A DNA stretch of 64,000 bases, taken from positions 541,910 to 605,909 of the forward strand of contig NZ_FOIT01000001.1 in assembly GCF_900110815.1 (NCBI RefSeq). Direction: 5' to 3'. The stretch's first letter is position 1, and every line of letters starts with the position of its first letter. The position numbers and the translations under genes are program-made. The notes under the pieces are model-generated. The model did not search any database, had not been told where the DNA came from, and saw only the letters and a list, made by a program, of their open reading frames with translations. The DNA comes from Aliicoccus persicus. Lineage in GTDB: Bacteria; Bacillota; Bacilli; Staphylococcales; Salinicoccaceae. This document shows positions 8,226 through 36,318 of the stretch, one piece after another.

Positions 8226-8325
8226 ACTTGCACCTCCTGGATAATAAGACTCGCCATCGAACGGTGGGATAACCACTTGTAAACCGTTGTATGAGCGGTT
8301 GATGTTTACAAATTTTCATCAACTC
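8226..8325 (-). ncRNA. L21 leader RNA (ribosomal protein autoregulation)
   Basis: The untranslated leader between the promoter and rplU can form hairpins (for example CCACTTGTAAACCG/CGGTTTACAAGTGG around 8273-8290, facing the ACGGTGGGAT element). It resembles the L21 leader motif described for Firmicutes. L21 is expected to bind here to repress its own operon. The match is from memory of the family; a covariance search would decide. Confidence 0.6.
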
Positions 8326-26205: not shown

Positions 26206-27018
26206 TTACGACTTAAGACTTGCCATTTTATTCGCAATAAATGCAGCAGCTCTCTTTGGACTGAATCGACTAAATCGATCTAAGAATGTCGCATCTTTAC
26301 CAACTAATACACGATACTCTTCATTTTCCATTCCTTCAATAATGATTTTTGCTGCTTCACTTGCTGGTAATGGTTTGAAGTCACTTTTCTTAGCTTCGTC
26401 TTCTGCCGACTCACTTTTCCCTTCAAGTCCTGAGTTTGTACTAATATTTGTCTCAATTGCTCCTGGAAAAACTACTGTTACTTTCACATTAGTTCCTGTG
26501 AGTTCAGAAGACAGTCCTTCAGTTAGCAATTTTACAGCTGCTTTAGATGCACCATAAATAGATTGACCTGGTACTGGAAGAAAACCGCCCATACTTGAAA
26601 TATTAACAATATGTGCTTCTCTTCTAGATTTTAAGCTCGGTAAAAATGCCTTAATGAAATACAGAGTTCCATAGAAATTTACATTCATGACCTGCTCAAT
26701 TTTCTCAATATCCAGTTCTTCCACATTAACAAATGGTTGAATAATTCCAGCATTGTTGATGATCCCATCCACTTCATCAAACTCAGTTTTTAATTCTTCT
26801 GGTAATTTTAGAACAGCTTCTTTGTCTGTAATATTTAGAACTTTAGTATATAGCCTTTCTTCTTTTACAGGTGATAACGATGCCGTTTCTTTTAACGATT
26901 CTTCATTCAAATCGACAGCAACTACTTTTGCACCCATTTCTAGTAGTATTAATGTCAATTCACGACCCATTCCAGATCCTGCACCTGTGACTAAAATTGT
27001 TTTACCGTTTACTTTCAT
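26206..27018 (-). CDS. short-chain dehydrogenase/reductase
   Basis: Classical SDR oxidoreductase, 270 residues from the ATG at 27018. The longer GTG start overlaps the ribosome site AGGAGTG. Visible: cofactor motif TGAGSGMGRE, the NNAG motif, catalytic Ser (NISSMGG) and YGASKAA (Tyr-x3-Lys). A C-terminal basic tail (FSPKRAAAFIANKMASL) may touch the membrane. Substrate unknown. A 51-bp repeat array lies about 110 bases upstream. Confidence 0.9.
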   Translation of the reverse strand: MKVNGKTILVTGAGSGMGRELTLILLEMGAKVVAVDLNEESLKETASLSPVKEERLYTKVLNITDKEAVLKLPEELKTEFDEVDGIINNAGIIQPFVNVEELDIEKIEQVMNVNFYGTLYFIKAFLPSLKSRREAHIVNISSMGGFLPVPGQSIYGASKAAVKLLTEGLSSELTGTNVKVTVVFPGAIETNISTNSGLEGKSESAEDEAKKSDFKPLPASEAAKIIIEGMENEEYRVLVGKDATFLDRFSRFSPKRAAAFIANKMASLKS

Positions 27019-27127
27019 TTTTCTCACTCCTTTGTAAAAAGTTTAGTTTATAATATTATACTTTATTTTTCTTTTGTCTATCTAAAATTTTTTCTAACTT
27101 TTTGAAAATCGGACTTAACAACAAACC

Positions 27128-27586
27128 GTGCTACTTCAGCTCCTGATTTAAGCACGAAGTAGCAGGTTAACCATAAACCTGCTACTTTACAACGATTTTT
27201 CACCCTGAAGTAGCAGGACAACCAAAAATCTGCTACTTCACGACTATTTTTGAGCTCGAAGTAGCAGGACAATCTAATCCGTGCTTACTCAACACAATTT
27301 TTGGACTCGAGTAAGCATGAAATCCGAAACCGTGCTTACTCAACATGATTTTTGAGCTCGAGTAAGCATGAAATCCGAAACCGTGCTTACTCAGCATGAT
27401 TTTTGAGCTCGAGTAAGCACGAGATCCGGAACTGTGCTCACTCCAGCCAATTGTTGAGACTGAGTTACCACGAAACCAAAATCCATGGTAACTCATCCCG
27501 ATTTTCGCACTCGAGTTACCACGAAACAAGAAACCGCACCAACTCAACACGATTTACGGGTTTGAGTTAGCACGGCACAACAATCT
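27128..27586. repeat. array A: nine 51-bp tandem hairpin units
   Basis: Nine units start exactly 51 bases apart at 27128, 27179, 27230, 27281, 27332, 27383, 27434, 27485 and 27536. Each has an 8-11 bp left arm, a 16-base or so loop (often GATTTTTGAGCTC-like) and a complementary right arm, then a 13-base linker. Stem sequences differ: GCTACTTC/GAAGTAGC in units 1-3, GCTTACTC/GAGTAAGC in 4-6 and GGTAACTC/GAGTTACC in 8, while 7 and 9 are hybrids. The array begins nine bases after the stop of the gene at 27595 and ends in AGCACGGCAC, like array B. Confidence 0.9.
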
Positions 27587-27594
27587 CTATTAAA

Positions 27595-27966
27595 TTAGTC
27601 TTCCTGCACTTCAAAATCCTCAGCAGTACTCTGTGTCGGGTAACTCTCAGCAATGGTCTTCACCCAGACAATGATCTCCGTACCGACTTCAATTTCTTCT
27701 ATATCCTCTGTTATCGTCACACGATGGGCACCTGTTGCTTCTTCTAGCAACGCTTCGTCATCGAGTTCAAACACTTCATCCACTGAAAGTCCTTCAACCA
27801 ATAAGACATTTTCTTCAGTCACTTCAGCCACTACACCTTCTAGTGTCGTCTGTAAGTCTTCTTCATCTCTCGGAGAAAATCCCAAAAACAAATAAAAGAC
27901 GAGGAACAGTCCAAATGGGACACATGCAAGTATTAATAAGAAGACAATCGGGTTCTTTCTTTTCAT
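27595..27966 (-). CDS. membrane-anchored uncharacterised protein
   Basis: 123 residues from the second of two adjacent ATGs, which has the better spacing to AGGTGA. One N-terminal membrane helix (about residues 8-29) is followed by a very acidic extracellular domain (EEDLQTTLEGVVAEVTEE) with alternating strands that could be a small OB-like fold. No known family recognised with certainty; DUF3221-like proteins look similar. It follows the Sco-type gene by about 60 bases, so it may belong to the same transcript. Confidence 0.65.
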   Translation of the reverse strand: MKRKNPIVFLLILACVPFGLFLVFYLFLGFSPRDEEDLQTTLEGVVAEVTEENVLLVEGLSVDEVFELDDEALLEEATGAHRVTITEDIEEIEVGTEIIVWVKTIAESYPTQSTAEDFEVQED

Positions 27967-28028
27967 CATGTCACCTGCTTTTTAGTTTAAATACTAACTT
28001 AGTGCAAACGAATGATGCAAAATATCAA

Positions 28029-28722: not shown

Positions 28723-31695
28723 CTAGACATGCAGTTTCGTCGTACTGTTATCATTGTTTGGTATCACTTCTATTTTATGTTCGAGTCGATGTTTTAACTC
28801 TTCAACATGCGATATGATACCTACCATTTTTCCTGACATTTCAAGTCCAAGCAATGATTCAATTGCATGATTTAATGCCTCTTGGTCTAGTGTACCAAAT
28901 CCTTCATCAATCAGCATTGTATCGAGTTGAATACCACCGGATGATTGTATAATGATTTCATTGATTGCGAGCGCTAAAGCAAGGGATGCTTGGAACGTTT
29001 CTCCACCTGATAAGGTATCCACATGTCTTGATCTGCCACTGAAACTATCATTGACGCGAATTTCTAAACCAGCTGCAGATCCTTTTCTATTCGCTTCGTT
29101 CGTACGTATCAGTGAATAGCGACCGTTCGTCATGTCACCAAGTCTAATATTTGCATGCGTTAAAACGCGATCTAAATGATAAGTTAAAACAAATCGATGT
29201 AGTGAAATACCATGTCCACCTTTTCCTGCAATAATTTCATAAACTTTATTTAATCGTTCAAATGTTTTGATATCTTCATTGATCGTCGTTCCAAGTGTGT
29301 CGATTTCTTCAAGTAAACGGTTGTTTTCATGCAGATCATTTTTTAACAATGTCGCATGTTTAACAAGTGTTTGATGTGATACTTCTAATTCCTTAAGTAA
29401 ATCACGTTCATCATCTTGGATTACTTTTCTTTCCGTCGTTTTAGCATCAATATGTGATGCTATTTTTATCTTTATTTCATTCAACTTATTATTGTAATTT
29501 TCGACTGTTGTTTCATCTTCGCTTATATCGCTCTCAAGAATATCTCTCAGTACATCAATATTTTCAATCTCTTGTTCACGAAGAAATGCTTCTAAATCTC
29601 CTTCTAACCGACGCGTTGCTTCCTCTTCTTTAACAATTTGCTCTTGTAAGTACTTAAGTCGATCTGAAGATACAGCAATATTCTGGTTTACCGTTTGGAG
29701 ATTTTTACCAAGTGTTTCTCTTTTCGCATAGTGTTTATCAACCTGATTTACAAATGATTTGTGCTGCTCGACGAACTCAGCATACGACTCCATTTTCGTT
29801 TCTTTTAAAAATTCTGACCTTGTGGATTCTAGTTTATCTCGTTCATTTTTCTTATCATTATAATCTGATTTCTTTAATGAGAGTGAATTAGATAATTCAG
29901 TTATGGATTCAATATTTTTATAATATGCTCTCTCTTTTTCCTTTAGTTCTTTTTTCGAATTCGATAAAGACACTTGTCTTTCCTCAAATTCTTTTAACTG
30001 AGCTTGAAGTTCTTCCAGAGAAAGTTCTGCATCTGATTTAAGTTCTTTTTGCAGCAGTTGTTTTTCTATTTCAATTGATTTTCGTTGATCTTTTAAAACC
30101 TCTAAATTACGCTGAATCGTGTTTAACTGTTCATTTGTAGCCGCATCATAGAACGCGTATTCTGGTAACTTCTCAATGACTCTTGAACAGATTGGACAAT
30201 TGTCCCCTTCTTCTAAATGCTTGGTTAAATGCTCAATTGCTGAACGATCTTCAGCTGAGTATTTGCCATTCATCGAATTAAGTAACTCTATTCGTTCGTT
30301 TTCTGTGTCAGTAATCTGAGCATCTATCTCTTTAATTTTTGTATCTAGATGCTCATGTTTAATTTGCTTATTCGTTTCTACTATTTCGTTATTCACAGCT
30401 TCAAGTTTATTAGCTAGTATTTCTTCTTCATCGTCACCGAATGTCAGTTGCTTCTTTTTCTCTTCAAGATGACTTTGTTCGGTCGTGAGCTTCGCGATTT
30501 CTTCCTCTAATTTATTACAAAGCATGACATGCTCTTCTAATTTCTTATCAATATCCTGATAAACGTCCATCTCTACAAATCGTTCAGTTGTGCGTATGTA
30601 TCGTTCTTTTTCCTCGACAGAAGCAGCGTTTTTCTTCAATGTCTCGAGTTCTCTTTCTACATCATTCTTTTTCGTTTGTAATCCATCAATAGCTTCAGTC
30701 AGCTGTGCAATTTTTTCTCTACTATTTTCCATTGATTTTAGATTGCCATCGTATGAACGCAGTGGATGTTTCATTATCAACGCATTTTTATGTTGTTCAA
30801 TTTTAGTTTTTAATGTCTCAATAACAATTTTCTGTTCATCCAACCTACTTTTTTCAGCAATCAATTGTTCATACTGAGCGACTGCTACATTATGTGTTTC
30901 ACGACTCTTTATATCTGTTTGTAGCTGTTCTTTCTTTTCTTTAACAGCACCAGCTTCACGCTCTGTTTCCTTAATCTTTTCCTCAATCAACGCATTCACT
31001 TTATCAATGAACTCTAGCTGTTGTTCAAATCCTTGTATTTGGTCCAATGATTCTGGTAACGCATCACTTTCAAGTCGCTCATATTTTACTTGTGAGAATA
31101 TGTGATCGAGCTTTAAATATAGTTTTTCAATCCTCGCTCTTTCTTCTTTCACATCACGTTCTAACGATTTCTCAAAATAGATAAATCGCTCTGCACTAAA
31201 GATTGTCGATAAGATTTTTGATTTTTCATCTGAACTCGACACGAGAAATTCTTTAAATGCACCTTGAGGCAGTAACAGTATTTGCTTAAACTGATGTTCA
31301 TTCAAATGAACCACTTCTAAAATAGCTTCACTCACTGCCTTCATACCACTCGCGATTGTTTTTCCATCCTTAAACATTAACAACGCTTTAGGTGGTACAT
31401 CTGACTTCTCTTCTCTATAAATCGTCATTGTTCGCTCAACGATGTACACCTTATTCCCCATTTCAAACTCTAACCTAACAACACTTTTTTCATCCTCAGC
31501 GGCAAACTGGCTACGCAGCGTTTTGACGCGTGAATCACTCCCGTAAAGGGCATAAAGAATACCATTAAATATCATCGACTTACCTGATCCCGTTGGACCT
31601 GTAAGTAAAAACATCTTTCCGTGGAGGTCAGAGAAGTCGATCGTTTCAGATCTAAATGGTCCAAAGTTTTGCAATTCTAATTTAATCGGTCTCAT
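28723..31695 (-). CDS. sbcC: nuclease SbcCD, ATPase subunit SbcC
   Basis: Rad50-like subunit that, with SbcD, cuts DNA hairpins and protein-blocked ends. 990 residues from the ATG at 31695 (AAGGAGGG site). It overlaps the end of sbcD by 14 bases. Walker A is GPTGSGKS (33-40), then long coiled coils around a zinc hook CPIC (NCPICSRVIEKLPE), signature LSGGETFQASLALAL, and Walker B MLIDEGFGTLD. Of interest beside the two hairpin arrays nearby, since SbcCD attacks long palindromes. Confidence 0.96.
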   Translation of the reverse strand: MRPIKLELQNFGPFRSETIDFSDLHGKMFLLTGPTGSGKSMIFNGILYALYGSDSRVKTLRSQFAAEDEKSVVRLEFEMGNKVYIVERTMTIYREEKSDVPPKALLMFKDGKTIASGMKAVSEAILEVVHLNEHQFKQILLLPQGAFKEFLVSSSDEKSKILSTIFSAERFIYFEKSLERDVKEERARIEKLYLKLDHIFSQVKYERLESDALPESLDQIQGFEQQLEFIDKVNALIEEKIKETEREAGAVKEKKEQLQTDIKSRETHNVAVAQYEQLIAEKSRLDEQKIVIETLKTKIEQHKNALIMKHPLRSYDGNLKSMENSREKIAQLTEAIDGLQTKKNDVERELETLKKNAASVEEKERYIRTTERFVEMDVYQDIDKKLEEHVMLCNKLEEEIAKLTTEQSHLEEKKKQLTFGDDEEEILANKLEAVNNEIVETNKQIKHEHLDTKIKEIDAQITDTENERIELLNSMNGKYSAEDRSAIEHLTKHLEEGDNCPICSRVIEKLPEYAFYDAATNEQLNTIQRNLEVLKDQRKSIEIEKQLLQKELKSDAELSLEELQAQLKEFEERQVSLSNSKKELKEKERAYYKNIESITELSNSLSLKKSDYNDKKNERDKLESTRSEFLKETKMESYAEFVEQHKSFVNQVDKHYAKRETLGKNLQTVNQNIAVSSDRLKYLQEQIVKEEEATRRLEGDLEAFLREQEIENIDVLRDILESDISEDETTVENYNNKLNEIKIKIASHIDAKTTERKVIQDDERDLLKELEVSHQTLVKHATLLKNDLHENNRLLEEIDTLGTTINEDIKTFERLNKVYEIIAGKGGHGISLHRFVLTYHLDRVLTHANIRLGDMTNGRYSLIRTNEANRKGSAAGLEIRVNDSFSGRSRHVDTLSGGETFQASLALALAINEIIIQSSGGIQLDTMLIDEGFGTLDQEALNHAIESLLGLEMSGKMVGIISHVEELKHRLEHKIEVIPNNDNSTTKLHV

Positions 31696-32812
31696 TCTGA
31701 CCCTCCTTAAAGTATGTGTTGAATACTTTCTTTGCCTCTTCTTGCAGCGCGTCATCTAAGTAGTTCTCCATGAACTGCTCAAATACATTGTGATCACTTG
31801 ATAACGTGCCTAGCGTTTTATGTTCAACGTCTGACACATTCATGCTTTTACGCTTTAACTCGAGCGCATTCGGATACACATTTTGAATTCTCGACATCGG
31901 CTCAGGCACACCTTCTAATCCTTCAAGTACAAACTGATAAAAAGCATCTCGCTCCGTTTCGATGTTTAGTAATTCTTCGACACGTCCGTTGATGACATCT
32001 TCAAAAGTGCCTTCAAACACATGTAAATCACGAAGTAAATTAAATGGTATAAATGTCGATTTATCTTGCTCTAAATCGAGCACTCTAAAACCTTTAGGTT
32101 GTTGATGTTCTGAAAAAGAATACTTCACTAGTGAACCTGAATAAGATATTTTCGGATGATCTATAGCAAAGGGATGGTGTAAATGCCCAAGTAAAGTATG
32201 ATCAAATGAATCAAATACAGATTGTGACACTTCACTATTTAACCCTCTAAACAGCGTGCGTTCTGAATCACTTTCACTACCTCCGCGTACAAATAGATGA
32301 CCCACAAAGATATTCTTCTTCGTTCGATCTAAATTCTCTTCAATTCGTTCAACGATTTTCTTGTACACATCATGATGGGACTCAATACTTTCATCTTCGA
32401 AATAGTATCTTGACTCTAACACATCAAAATATGGCACAAGATAAAAATCGACCTCACCCATAGAAATCGGCGTAAACGCTGAATCAAAAGTGGTATGTAT
32501 GTAGACATCCATCGCTCTAAACCAATCACTGGCATAAGAAAGCCGCGATTGTGAATCATGGTTTCCTGAAATAATGAATATCGGTTTCTTCAACTCAATA
32601 TTAATCGTACGTAATGTTTCGTTAACCAACTGCATCGCTTCTTTTGAAGGTTGGGTCGTATCATATAAATCACCAGCGATCACAACGACATCAATTGAGT
32701 TATTTCTTATGTAGTCTACGATTTGATCAAGTACATGTACTTGATCCTCATATAAATCTTTTCTTAGCAACCGCTTACCGATATGCCAATCCCCTGTGTG
32801 CAGTATTTTCAT
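31682..32812 (-). CDS. sbcD: nuclease SbcCD, nuclease subunit SbcD
   Basis: Mre11-like manganese-dependent nuclease. 376 residues. Phosphoesterase motifs in order: GDWHIG (Asp7, His9), AGDLYD, GNHDS and GHLHHP. The C-terminal part binds SbcC. First gene of the sbcDC operon. Confidence 0.96.
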   Translation of the reverse strand: MKILHTGDWHIGKRLLRKDLYEDQVHVLDQIVDYIRNNSIDVVVIAGDLYDTTQPSKEAMQLVNETLRTINIELKKPIFIISGNHDSQSRLSYASDWFRAMDVYIHTTFDSAFTPISMGEVDFYLVPYFDVLESRYYFEDESIESHHDVYKKIVERIEENLDRTKKNIFVGHLFVRGGSESDSERTLFRGLNSEVSQSVFDSFDHTLLGHLHHPFAIDHPKISYSGSLVKYSFSEHQQPKGFRVLDLEQDKSTFIPFNLLRDLHVFEGTFEDVINGRVEELLNIETERDAFYQFVLEGLEGVPEPMSRIQNVYPNALELKRKSMNVSDVEHKTLGTLSSDHNVFEQFMENYLDDALQEEAKKVFNTYFKEGQNETD

Positions 32813-34195: not shown

Positions 34196-34489
34196 CTATT
34201 CACTCAATCTTTTGATTGCTTTTTTATACACATCAGAATTATCCCGCTTGCCAATTGCAATGATTTCAATAATTTCTATTCCGCCATCAATCTGGCGAAA
34301 AACAATACGCAACCCGGTAGTTCTCATTTTTATCTTTCGACAATGACTTAAGCTACCTCTCAGTGGCTCACCAGCTTGCATCCCTCTCTGTTCTATTCTC
34401 TTTAAACCTTTCAGAACAGGAACTTTCATACTACCATCGAGTTTTCGAAAATCATCAGATGAGTAATTTGTAAATCGTACTTGATACAT
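34196..34489 (-). CDS. RelE/ParE-type toxin
   Basis: 97 residues from the ATG at 34489, which overlaps the antitoxin stop as TAATG. RelE/ParE-fold features: the N-terminal strand MYQVRFTNYSSDDFRKL, helical LKGLKRIEQRG, the basic core CRKIKMRTTGLRIVFRQ, and the ending IGKRDNSDVYKKAIKRL. Most likely a ribosome-dependent mRNA interferase or a gyrase poison; the sequence does not say which. Tightly coupled to its antitoxin. Confidence 0.85.
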   Translation of the reverse strand: MYQVRFTNYSSDDFRKLDGSMKVPVLKGLKRIEQRGMQAGEPLRGSLSHCRKIKMRTTGLRIVFRQIDGGIEIIEIIAIGKRDNSDVYKKAIKRLSE

Positions 34490-34800
34490 TACTCCCATCC
34501 ATCATCTTCATCATATTTTATGTCGTCTAGACTGACACCAGTAACTTCCTTTACGGAATATGTCTTAGTATTTTTATATTCTAATCGAGATTTGATAATC
34601 ATCTCATCTATACGTTCATATAATTTATCAATTTCAGCATTTAGACCTTCATATTGCTCTTGAGTCAACATGACACCAGCTACTTCATTGCGATTCAAAA
34701 TATATACTGCGTTATCTGATGCTGCTGCTTCTTTAAATGCACTCATCGGTGATCGCTTTACTTCTGAAATACTTTTATATGGTACTTTAAGAACTTCCAT
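34489..34800 (-). CDS. Phd/YefM-type antitoxin
   Basis: 103 residues. The N-terminal Phd/YefM domain (YKSISEVKRSPMSAFKEA...YILNRNEVAGVMLTQEQYEGL) binds the operator. The acidic C-terminal part (SLDDIKYDEDDGWE) should wrap the toxin. It precedes its toxin, as is usual; the pair should autoregulate. Confidence 0.88.
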   Translation of the reverse strand: MEVLKVPYKSISEVKRSPMSAFKEAAASDNAVYILNRNEVAGVMLTQEQYEGLNAEIDKLYERIDEMIIKSRLEYKNTKTYSVKEVTGVSLDDIKYDEDDGWE

Positions 34801-34963: not shown

Positions 34964-35371
34964 TCGCTACTTCACAAACATTTCTCATCCTGAAGTAGCG
35001 ATAGTTTATAAAAGTCGCTACTTCACTGGCATATTTTTGCTTGAAGTAGCGAAAATTTTCAAAAGTCGCTACTTCACAGCCTCTTTTCATACTGAAGTAG
35101 CGATGAAAATTTTAATCTGCCAATTCACCACAATTTTTTCAATTGAGTTGGCAGCTTTTATGTAAAGTTGCCAATTCAATACACTTTTTCCATCTGAATT
35201 GGCAGGCTAGACTTTGATCATGCTTACTCACATCATTTTTTTCGCCTGAGTGAGCACGAAAGCTGGATTCATGCTTACTCACGACGATTTTTGAGCTTGA
35301 GTGAGCACGAAAGCTGAATCCATGCTTACTCACGACGATCTTTAAGCTTGAGTGAGCACGGCACATAATAA
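34964..35371. repeat. array B: eight 51-bp tandem hairpin units
   Basis: Units are 51 bases apart with a single 52-base step between units 5 and 6; left arms end at 34974, 35025, 35076, 35127, 35178, 35230, 35281 and 35332. Units 1-3 have perfect 11-bp stems TCGCTACTTCA/TGAAGTAGCGA with unrelated 16-base loops. Units 4-5 have TGCCAATTCA/TGAATTGGCA-type stems. Units 6-8 have TGCTTACTCA/TGAGTGAGCA stems with one G-T pair. The right end is GAGTGAGCACGGCAC, as in array A. It lies just after the terminator of the VOC gene. Confidence 0.9.
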
Positions 35372-35411
35372 AACCTCCTATGTCCACAGATTCTCTCTGT
35401 GAACATAGGAG
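35370..35411 (-). terminator. terminator after the VOC-family gene
   Basis: Stem CTCCTATGT..CACAGA/TCTGTG..ACATAGGAG, then a T-rich stretch on the minus strand. Confidence 0.75.
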
Positions 35412-35421
35412 ATATCTATAA

Positions 35422-36318
35422 CTACCCTTTGTACGCTTTTTCCAATTCTGCTAAATCAAATTTCTTCATCTTTAAAAATGCTTCTGTCACACGCTTGATC
35501 TGTTCTTCACTACCGTTTTCTAGCATCTCATCCATCCGTTTAGGTACAATTTGCCATGATACTCCGTACTGGTCTTTCAACCAGCCACACTGTTCGGATT
35601 CTGGCACTGCACTTAACCCATTCCAGAAATGATCGATTTCATCTTGATCTTCACAATTGACCATGAGTGAAATACCTTCATTGAAATTAAATTCATGACT
35701 GATTGCACTGTCCTGCACGACGAAACGCTCAGCATCTAATAGAAAGTGACCATTCATCACATGCGATGTAAGATTCGGTTCCATGCCTTCTGGATAGTAA
35801 CACATATCGAGTGAATTAGTACTGTTAAATAGATCTGTGTATAATTTAGCCGCTTCTTCCGCTTTACCAACGACATCGTTTGTAAAAGTAAGCGTTGGAA
35901 CGACAGTTGACGGAGGAAAGGTCTCCTTATCATCTACAAGATAAAGTTGCCATGATACATTGTATTTATCTTCAACCCAACCATATTTGCTACTAAATGG
36001 ATAGTCGCCCAAATCCATCAATGCTTTACCGCCATCTAATAATTTACTCCAAATCTCATCGATTAAATCCTTTTCTTCTGAACGAAATGGAATGAGAAAT
36101 GAAATTGCTGGGTTTTTCGTGAAGTAAGGTCCTGCACTAATTGCCATAAATCGATAGCCTAAAATTTCAAAAACAACTTGACCTGCATCACCTGAAGGTG
36201 TGTCAGAAATCGTGCTTCGCGATAGAATTTTTGAATTAGGAAAAATATCAGTATAAAATTCTGCCGCTTCTTGTGCTTCGGTCTCAAACCATAAATGTGG
36301 TACGACTTTCTGATTCAT
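35422..36318 (-). CDS. VOC-family protein, two PhnB-like domains
   Basis: 298 residues made of two similar halves (about 1-130 and 145-275). Each carries the 3-demethylubiquinone-9 3-methyltransferase-like/PhnB pattern: LWFETEAQEAAEFYTDIFPNS with WVEDKYNVSWQL, then AAKLYTDLFN with WLKDQYGVSWQI. Cytoplasmic, likely metal-dependent or binding; function not known. AAGGAGATG precedes the ATG. Confidence 0.88.
   Translation of the reverse strand: MNQKVVPHLWFETEAQEAAEFYTDIFPNSKILSRSTISDTPSGDAGQVVFEILGYRFMAISAGPYFTKNPAISFLIPFRSEEKDLIDEIWSKLLDGGKALMDLGDYPFSSKYGWVEDKYNVSWQLYLVDDKETFPPSTVVPTLTFTNDVVGKAEEAAKLYTDLFNSTNSLDMCYYPEGMEPNLTSHVMNGHFLLDAERFVVQDSAISHEFNFNEGISLMVNCEDQDEIDHFWNGLSAVPESEQCGWLKDQYGVSWQIVPKRMDEMLENGSEEQIKRVTEAFLKMKKFDLAELEKAYKG

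Follow-up and report, generated by a model that had tools for sequence, protein, structure and literature searches.

The BOX elements of Streptococcus pneumoniae are modular intergenic repeats that form hairpins and contain inner units in tandem; built of fixed boxA, boxB and boxC modules, with no phased lattice of exchangeable stems, they differ by description from the arrays reported here. The nearest known families are the BIMEs and STAR, although the arrays are filed as neither. The BIME/REP sequences of enterobacteria and Pseudomonas resemble these arrays: they are intergenic and palindromic, lie close to gene ends in many copies, and combine related units into tandem mosaics; BIME-2 arrays bind gyrase (PMC2817692). 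STAR, found in Staphylococcus and hence in the same bacterial order, shares the intergenic tandem arrangement, the variable number of units and the locus-specific spacers (PMC3532100). It is made of a fixed 14-bp motif, T(G/A/T)TGTTG(G/T)GGCCC(C/A), with spacers of 40-44 bp, resulting in steps of 54-58 bp (PMC3532100).

The window, a stretch of 64,000 nucleotides of the Aliicoccus persicus genome, contains two such arrays. Array A (27128-27586, plus strand) consists of nine units starting at 27128, 27179, 27230, 27281, 27332, 27383, 27434, 27485 and 27536: the step is exactly 51 bp throughout, as claimed in a preliminary description made from the sequence, which counted nine hairpins without an indel. 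Each unit comprises a hairpin of 38 nt, in which a stem of 10 bp closes a T-rich loop of 18 nt, and then a 13-nt spacer; the array is matched by R1, a covariance model built from the 17 units of arrays A and B. The stem is GCTACTTC in units 1-3 (27128-27267, class (C/G)TGCTACTTC), GCTTACTC in units 4-6 (27281-27420, class GTGCTTACTC) and GGTAACTC in unit 8 (27485-27522, ATGGTAACTC/GAGTTACCAC), all on the plus strand; the switching between sub-blocks that had been noticed, with both arms changing together, is confirmed by these classes. On the same strand, unit 7 (27434-27471) is a clear hybrid, pairing a GCTCACTC left arm (GTGCTCACTC) with a GGTAACTC-type right arm (GAGTTACCAC). The other reported hybrid, unit 9 (27536-27573), is one as well, but a poorer and imperfect one (ACCAACTC with GCTAACTC; left arm GCACCAACTC, right arm GAGTTAGCAC). 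Against dinucleotide shuffles, the 491-nt stretch that was folded reaches z = -11.0 as RNA (minus strand) and -10.2 as DNA (plus strand). Folding so far beyond the shuffles excludes a chance origin of the hairpins.

On one side, array A is faced by the 5' end of a short-chain dehydrogenase gene (26206-27027, minus strand; ORF, Pfam PF00106), and on the other, roughly 20 bp separate its last hairpin from the stop codon of a DUF3221 gene (27595-27969, minus strand; ORF, Pfam PF11518). Array B (34964-35360, plus strand) adds eight more units of this family, in the stem classes TCGCTACTTC (three units), (C/T)TGCCAATTC (two units) and ATGCTTACTC (three units); its single step of 52 bp falls where the class changes for the last time. 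A terminator-like hairpin read in the sequence (35375-35411, minus strand) separates it from the 3' end of the gene at 35422-36318. The hairpin nuclease genes sbcC and sbcD (28723-32812) are close to array A, probably by coincidence, because arrays are scattered over the whole genome; at the SbcD loci of Jeotgalicoccus and Salinicoccus, no R1-type hairpin was found. Beside array B (34196-34800), a YefM/Phd-like antitoxin gene and an overlapping downstream ORF of 100 aa (no Pfam match) likely form a toxin-antitoxin pair. The sole Rfam match within the window is a ribosomal protein L21 leader (8237-8310, minus strand).

Two corrections to the preliminary description are that array A is one of about 30 in the genome and that others do contain indels. 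In the window's own genome (2.06 Mb, 8 contigs), R1 gave at least 148 matches in about 30 arrays, and the 51-bp family is put at about 150-170 units, all arrays being intergenic. Stem classes number about nine (TGCCAATTC, TGCTTACTC, TGCTCACTC, TGCTACTTC, CGCTACTTC, TGGTAACTC, TGCTAACTC, TGCCAACTC and CGCTAACTC), and many arrays are runs of two to four of them. This mosaic exceeds the >100 palindromic intergenic copies per genome by which REP/BIME families are recognized. Unlike BIME/REP, however, the arrays have stems that are not conserved between arrays, a strict 41/51/61-bp lattice, Gram-positive hosts and no Y1 transposase: the REP-type Y1 tyrosine transposase domain (PF01797) has no match in the A. 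persicus genome. STAR differs by its fixed motif and longer steps, and its 14-bp motif gave no match in the window, even with up to two mismatches. A CRISPR is unlikely, as the repeat is not constant but changes by class, and an array uses the same loops and spacers more than once; the scanned genes nearest the arrays are, by Pfam, not cas genes. The initial judgment is supported in that the repeat is neither STAR nor tied to a REP transposase.

The two arms of the hairpins covary. In the 17 units of arrays A and B, 94% of the stem cells are paired (76% after shuffling), and both sides vary in seven of the ten pairs. With 47 diverse units, both sides vary in eight of ten, above every shuffle, and sliding the partner abolishes the signal. 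Among 171 cleaned units of the genome, 93% of the inner stem cells are Watson-Crick. The mismatches in these units comprise 32 G.T, 34 A.C and 36 others; the strand-specific wobble signature of RNA that was sought is absent, and the equal G.T and A.C counts indicate no preference for an RNA strand. Over eight core bases, the left and right arms within a unit show two or more differences in 18 of the 171 units, compared with 33 of 123 neighbors for a right arm and the next left arm; hence, the unit is the hairpin and not a pairing between neighbors. The original hairpin reading is therefore right as far as pairing goes; the stem sequence is not kept, and classes change mostly between hairpins, seldom inside one. 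Both explanations proposed for the maintenance of the hairpins, selection or a copying process, fit the data. Steps near 51 bp are exactly 51 in 110 of 123 cases, and 12 of the 13 others coincide with a change of stem class. In 1.22 Mb of other Firmicutes, no chain of three or more hairpins was found at any arm spacing or period tested.

Tandem-repeat scans covered samples unselected for arrays (463 kb of A. persicus, the window included; two Jeotgalicoccus samples of 400 kb and 151 kb; and 240 kb of the neighboring genus g2), as well as 120 kb of g10 picked around matches of R2, a second model used to search relatives for the 51-bp family. In these array-bearing Salinicoccaceae/Staphylococcaceae genomes, 56 intergenic arrays were identified, with periods of 41 bp (40 arrays), 42 (1), 50 (1), 51 (13) and 61 (1). 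According to the threshold chosen, they form 22-28 sequence clusters; because members of a family inherit their period from a common ancestor, there are fewer independent cases than arrays. Many of the 41-bp arrays show no significant hairpin on the consensus, and there, the period alone is the evidence. The same scan found no array in 305 kb of Salinicoccus and three in 1.38 Mb of other Firmicutes, among them a 41-bp hairpin array in Tetragenococcus.

Irregular steps follow a similar rule. The ten shorter than 100 bp within the 51-bp arrays of A. persicus (41, 70, 71, 71, 82, 82, 91, 91, 91 and 92 bp) fit a 10.2-bp ladder with a mean cosine of 0.92, bettered by 0 of 20,000 uniform draws, although 10.2 is 51/5, a value taken after the period was known, with a hypothesis that arose from the same data. 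Several of the irregular junctions appear to have been copied from each other, and steps above 100 bp fit the ladder less well. The spacing thus appears to be quantized in turns of the DNA helix, with four, five and six turns at ~10.2 bp giving 41, 51 and 61 bp, an apparent regularity that was missed when array A was treated as 51-bp hairpins. Periods and ladder fit helical phasing and, hence, an element acting on double-stranded DNA.

The genomic context, which the preliminary description lacked, reveals that convergent gene pairs are the main setting of the arrays and that terminators often precede them. In three samples unselected for arrays, 22 of 40 arrays separate convergent genes, compared with 102 of 869 neighboring gene pairs (p = 2e-10, with genes taken as simple longest-ORF calls), an enrichment of about nine-fold. 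For the 51-bp arrays of A. persicus, the count is 16 of 32 (p = 1.5e-7). The arrays avoid genes and, mostly, promoters. Of 110 gene ends that face an array, 61 have a recognized intrinsic terminator between the stop codon and the array; among controls, the figure is 94 of 273 (p = 2e-4), a rough comparison because some control ends lie within operons. The median distance from the T-run to the array is ~30 bp, and the other 49 facing ends have no recognized terminator before the array. Together with the helical spacing, the location beyond terminators favors a role at the DNA level over an RNA hairpin as such. In 22 of the 26 arrays with a clear skew (22 v 4), the strand with the T-rich loops is the C-rich strand, which suggests an orientation relative to replication.

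A. persicus falls in the same family as Jeotgalicoccus and Salinicoccus and was the sole representative of its genus in the comparison. Matches of R2 occur in all six genomes of genus g2, in arrays with 51-bp steps (all 50 of the near-51 steps are exactly 51). In two further families, 51-bp arrays are sparse (one genome, G033, and G066 and G049 of g10), and in genus g14 (G084), the same GCTCACTC stem has a loop of ~28 nt, 10 nt longer, and a step of 61 bp. The genomes of Salinicoccus, Jeotgalicoccus and Staphylococcus gave zero R2 matches, and outside the Staphylococcales, nothing was found among 400 Bacilli. The 51-bp sequence family is therefore narrow, and only the lattice pattern is wide. 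In G050, of a Gemella-like family, a weak match resembles a lone hairpin. The search of the genome and its relatives for 51-bp hairpins, as initially proposed, has thus yielded a family that spans several genera and the whole genome.

In g2, most arrays are at orthologous sites across species. At one locus, the same genes enclose or adjoin an array in G015, G001, G006, G021, G018 and G033, the stem classes differing by species (for G011, only the upstream side was read). The G033 protein at this locus is 64% identical to that of g2, compared with ~40% for Jeotgalicoccus, so a transfer of the region is possible. Orthologous arrays differ in unit number, and in sister species, the stems are replaced at the same array site. 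A comparison of loci within g2 shows conservation of the stems but not of the loops or spacers, and one constant T.G mismatch is kept in about 30 of 64 units. After the CTGCTCA class, the g2 arrays of L214 and L222-L224 continue with a second class, CGTTTAG/CTAAACG, and those of G018 with GTGCAGATA/TATCTGCAC, in both cases at 51-bp steps.

With a probability of roughly 0.4, array A belongs to a family of dyad arrays that are intergenic, helix-phased and BIME-like and are bound by protein at the ends of transcription units. The lengths of arm, loop and spacer in the inverted-repeat unit would place each unit on the face of the helix that its neighbors occupy, while the stem sequence would be nearly free and would change by exchange of whole hairpins. 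Located at the 3' ends of transcription units, chiefly between convergent genes and often beyond terminators, one face of the array may be lined by a candidate protein that recognizes the geometry of the dyad, for example gyrase or another topoisomerase, or else a nucleoid protein. The putative bound array could then buffer supercoiling, or block read-through transcription, between the neighboring genes. Helical phase, the lack of wobble preference and the position after terminators point to binding on double-stranded DNA rather than RNA. A free stem with conserved symmetry implies either recognition of geometry or a mutational process that keeps the symmetry. No candidate protein partner was found, and a free stem, unusual for a protein site, suits a mutational origin equally.

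Such an origin is the close rival of the BIME-like DNA element and deserves to be taken seriously, if tentatively. The arrays would be selfish or neutral minisatellites, whose hairpin units spread and multiply, through slippage during replication and through recombination, wherever the space after a gene tolerates them; the symmetry of the arms would come from template-switch correction of quasi-palindromes instead of selection, and the 10-bp ladder from the geometry of duplication. The homogenization of units in same-class runs, the differing unit numbers, the stem replacement between sister species at one site and the avoidance of genes and most promoters are all as expected from minisatellites. 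The bias of the T-loop strand (22 v 4) towards the C-rich, presumably lagging, strand might also result from a replication-linked process. However, array sites are kept across species and, once, across families, and the g2 stems are conserved across loci where loops and spacers are not. The constant T.G mismatch means that arms are not always corrected, and a helical ladder shared by unrelated families is not an obvious product of neutral slippage.

An action as RNA, with tandem 3'-UTR hairpins stabilizing or terminating transcripts or stopping antisense read-through, is unlikely. Array A folds very strongly as RNA, the stems covary, the arrays are located at 3' ends, and the 49 gene ends without a recognized terminator would leave room for this function; nevertheless, G-U pairs are not preferred over A-C mismatches, the array often starts past the terminator, helical phase is irrelevant to RNA, the strand of the array tracks GC skew and not the adjoining gene, and Rfam covariance models gave no array match above the gathering score. 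Mobility as a REP-like element spread by a Y1 (RAYT/IS200-type) transposase is very improbable: palindromic, intergenic, mosaic and in high copy, the arrays do resemble BIMEs (PMC2817692), but PF01797 is missing from A. persicus and from five of the six g2 genomes, the sixth having one fragment. Coding repeats hardly merit consideration. The period of 51 is 3 x 17 codons, and a 105-aa frame (27233-27550, minus strand) stays open across about six units of array A, yet every frame has 6-11 stops over the full array, which refutes this for array A as a whole. Moreover, only 2 of 20 longer arrays have a fully open frame, related arrays have periods of 41 and 61 and steps of 50 or 52, and no Pfam match was obtained.

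The helix-phased dyad arrays are apparently a large, undescribed set of DNA repeats in staphylococcal relatives; no published description was found in the open-licence literature. A broader version of this reading is rather doubtful: a geometry-defined intergenic element of several Bacilli families, in which near-arbitrary inverted repeats, phased at 41, 51 or 61 bp and placed at the same gene ends across species, would be read by a structure-sensitive DNA machine insulating transcription units. If true, a phased DNA lattice of free sequence and fixed geometry would be a common, overlooked part of these genomes. It would parallel BIMEs in Gram-positive bacteria, though lacking their transposase, and would make the insulation of convergent genes in bacteria directly open to experiment. 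The arrays also offer a natural test of selection versus quasi-palindrome correction for covarying stems in DNA repeats.

Arrays of 41 bp belong to other sequence families. In A. persicus (G000 contig C8, L330-L343), 14 intergenic 41-bp arrays in 399 kb form a separate family, whose unit has two small dyads, CAATGAG/CTCATAG and ACGCAAAT/ATCTGCGT. Jeotgalicoccus has many intergenic arrays of 41 or 42 bp with varied stems, a set distinct from the R1 type; examples are L091 3106-3363, 8345-8707 and 18373-18572, L092 15734-16462, L093 16870-17310, and L096 3139-3399, 8394-8656 and 20147-20466. The density is 17 arrays in 400 kb, with a similar number in 463 kb of A. persicus; roughly 90 per Jeotgalicoccus genome is an extrapolation from those 17 in 400 kb of G010, and genome-wide counts of 41-bp arrays are, in general, extrapolations from samples. 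In Tetragenococcus (Lactobacillales), the 41-bp hairpin arrays (L104 8291-8471, L351 1460-1705 and L353 1501-1632) have AT-rich stems, TTA(C/T)TCAAT, and units with long loops lead to 73-bp steps.
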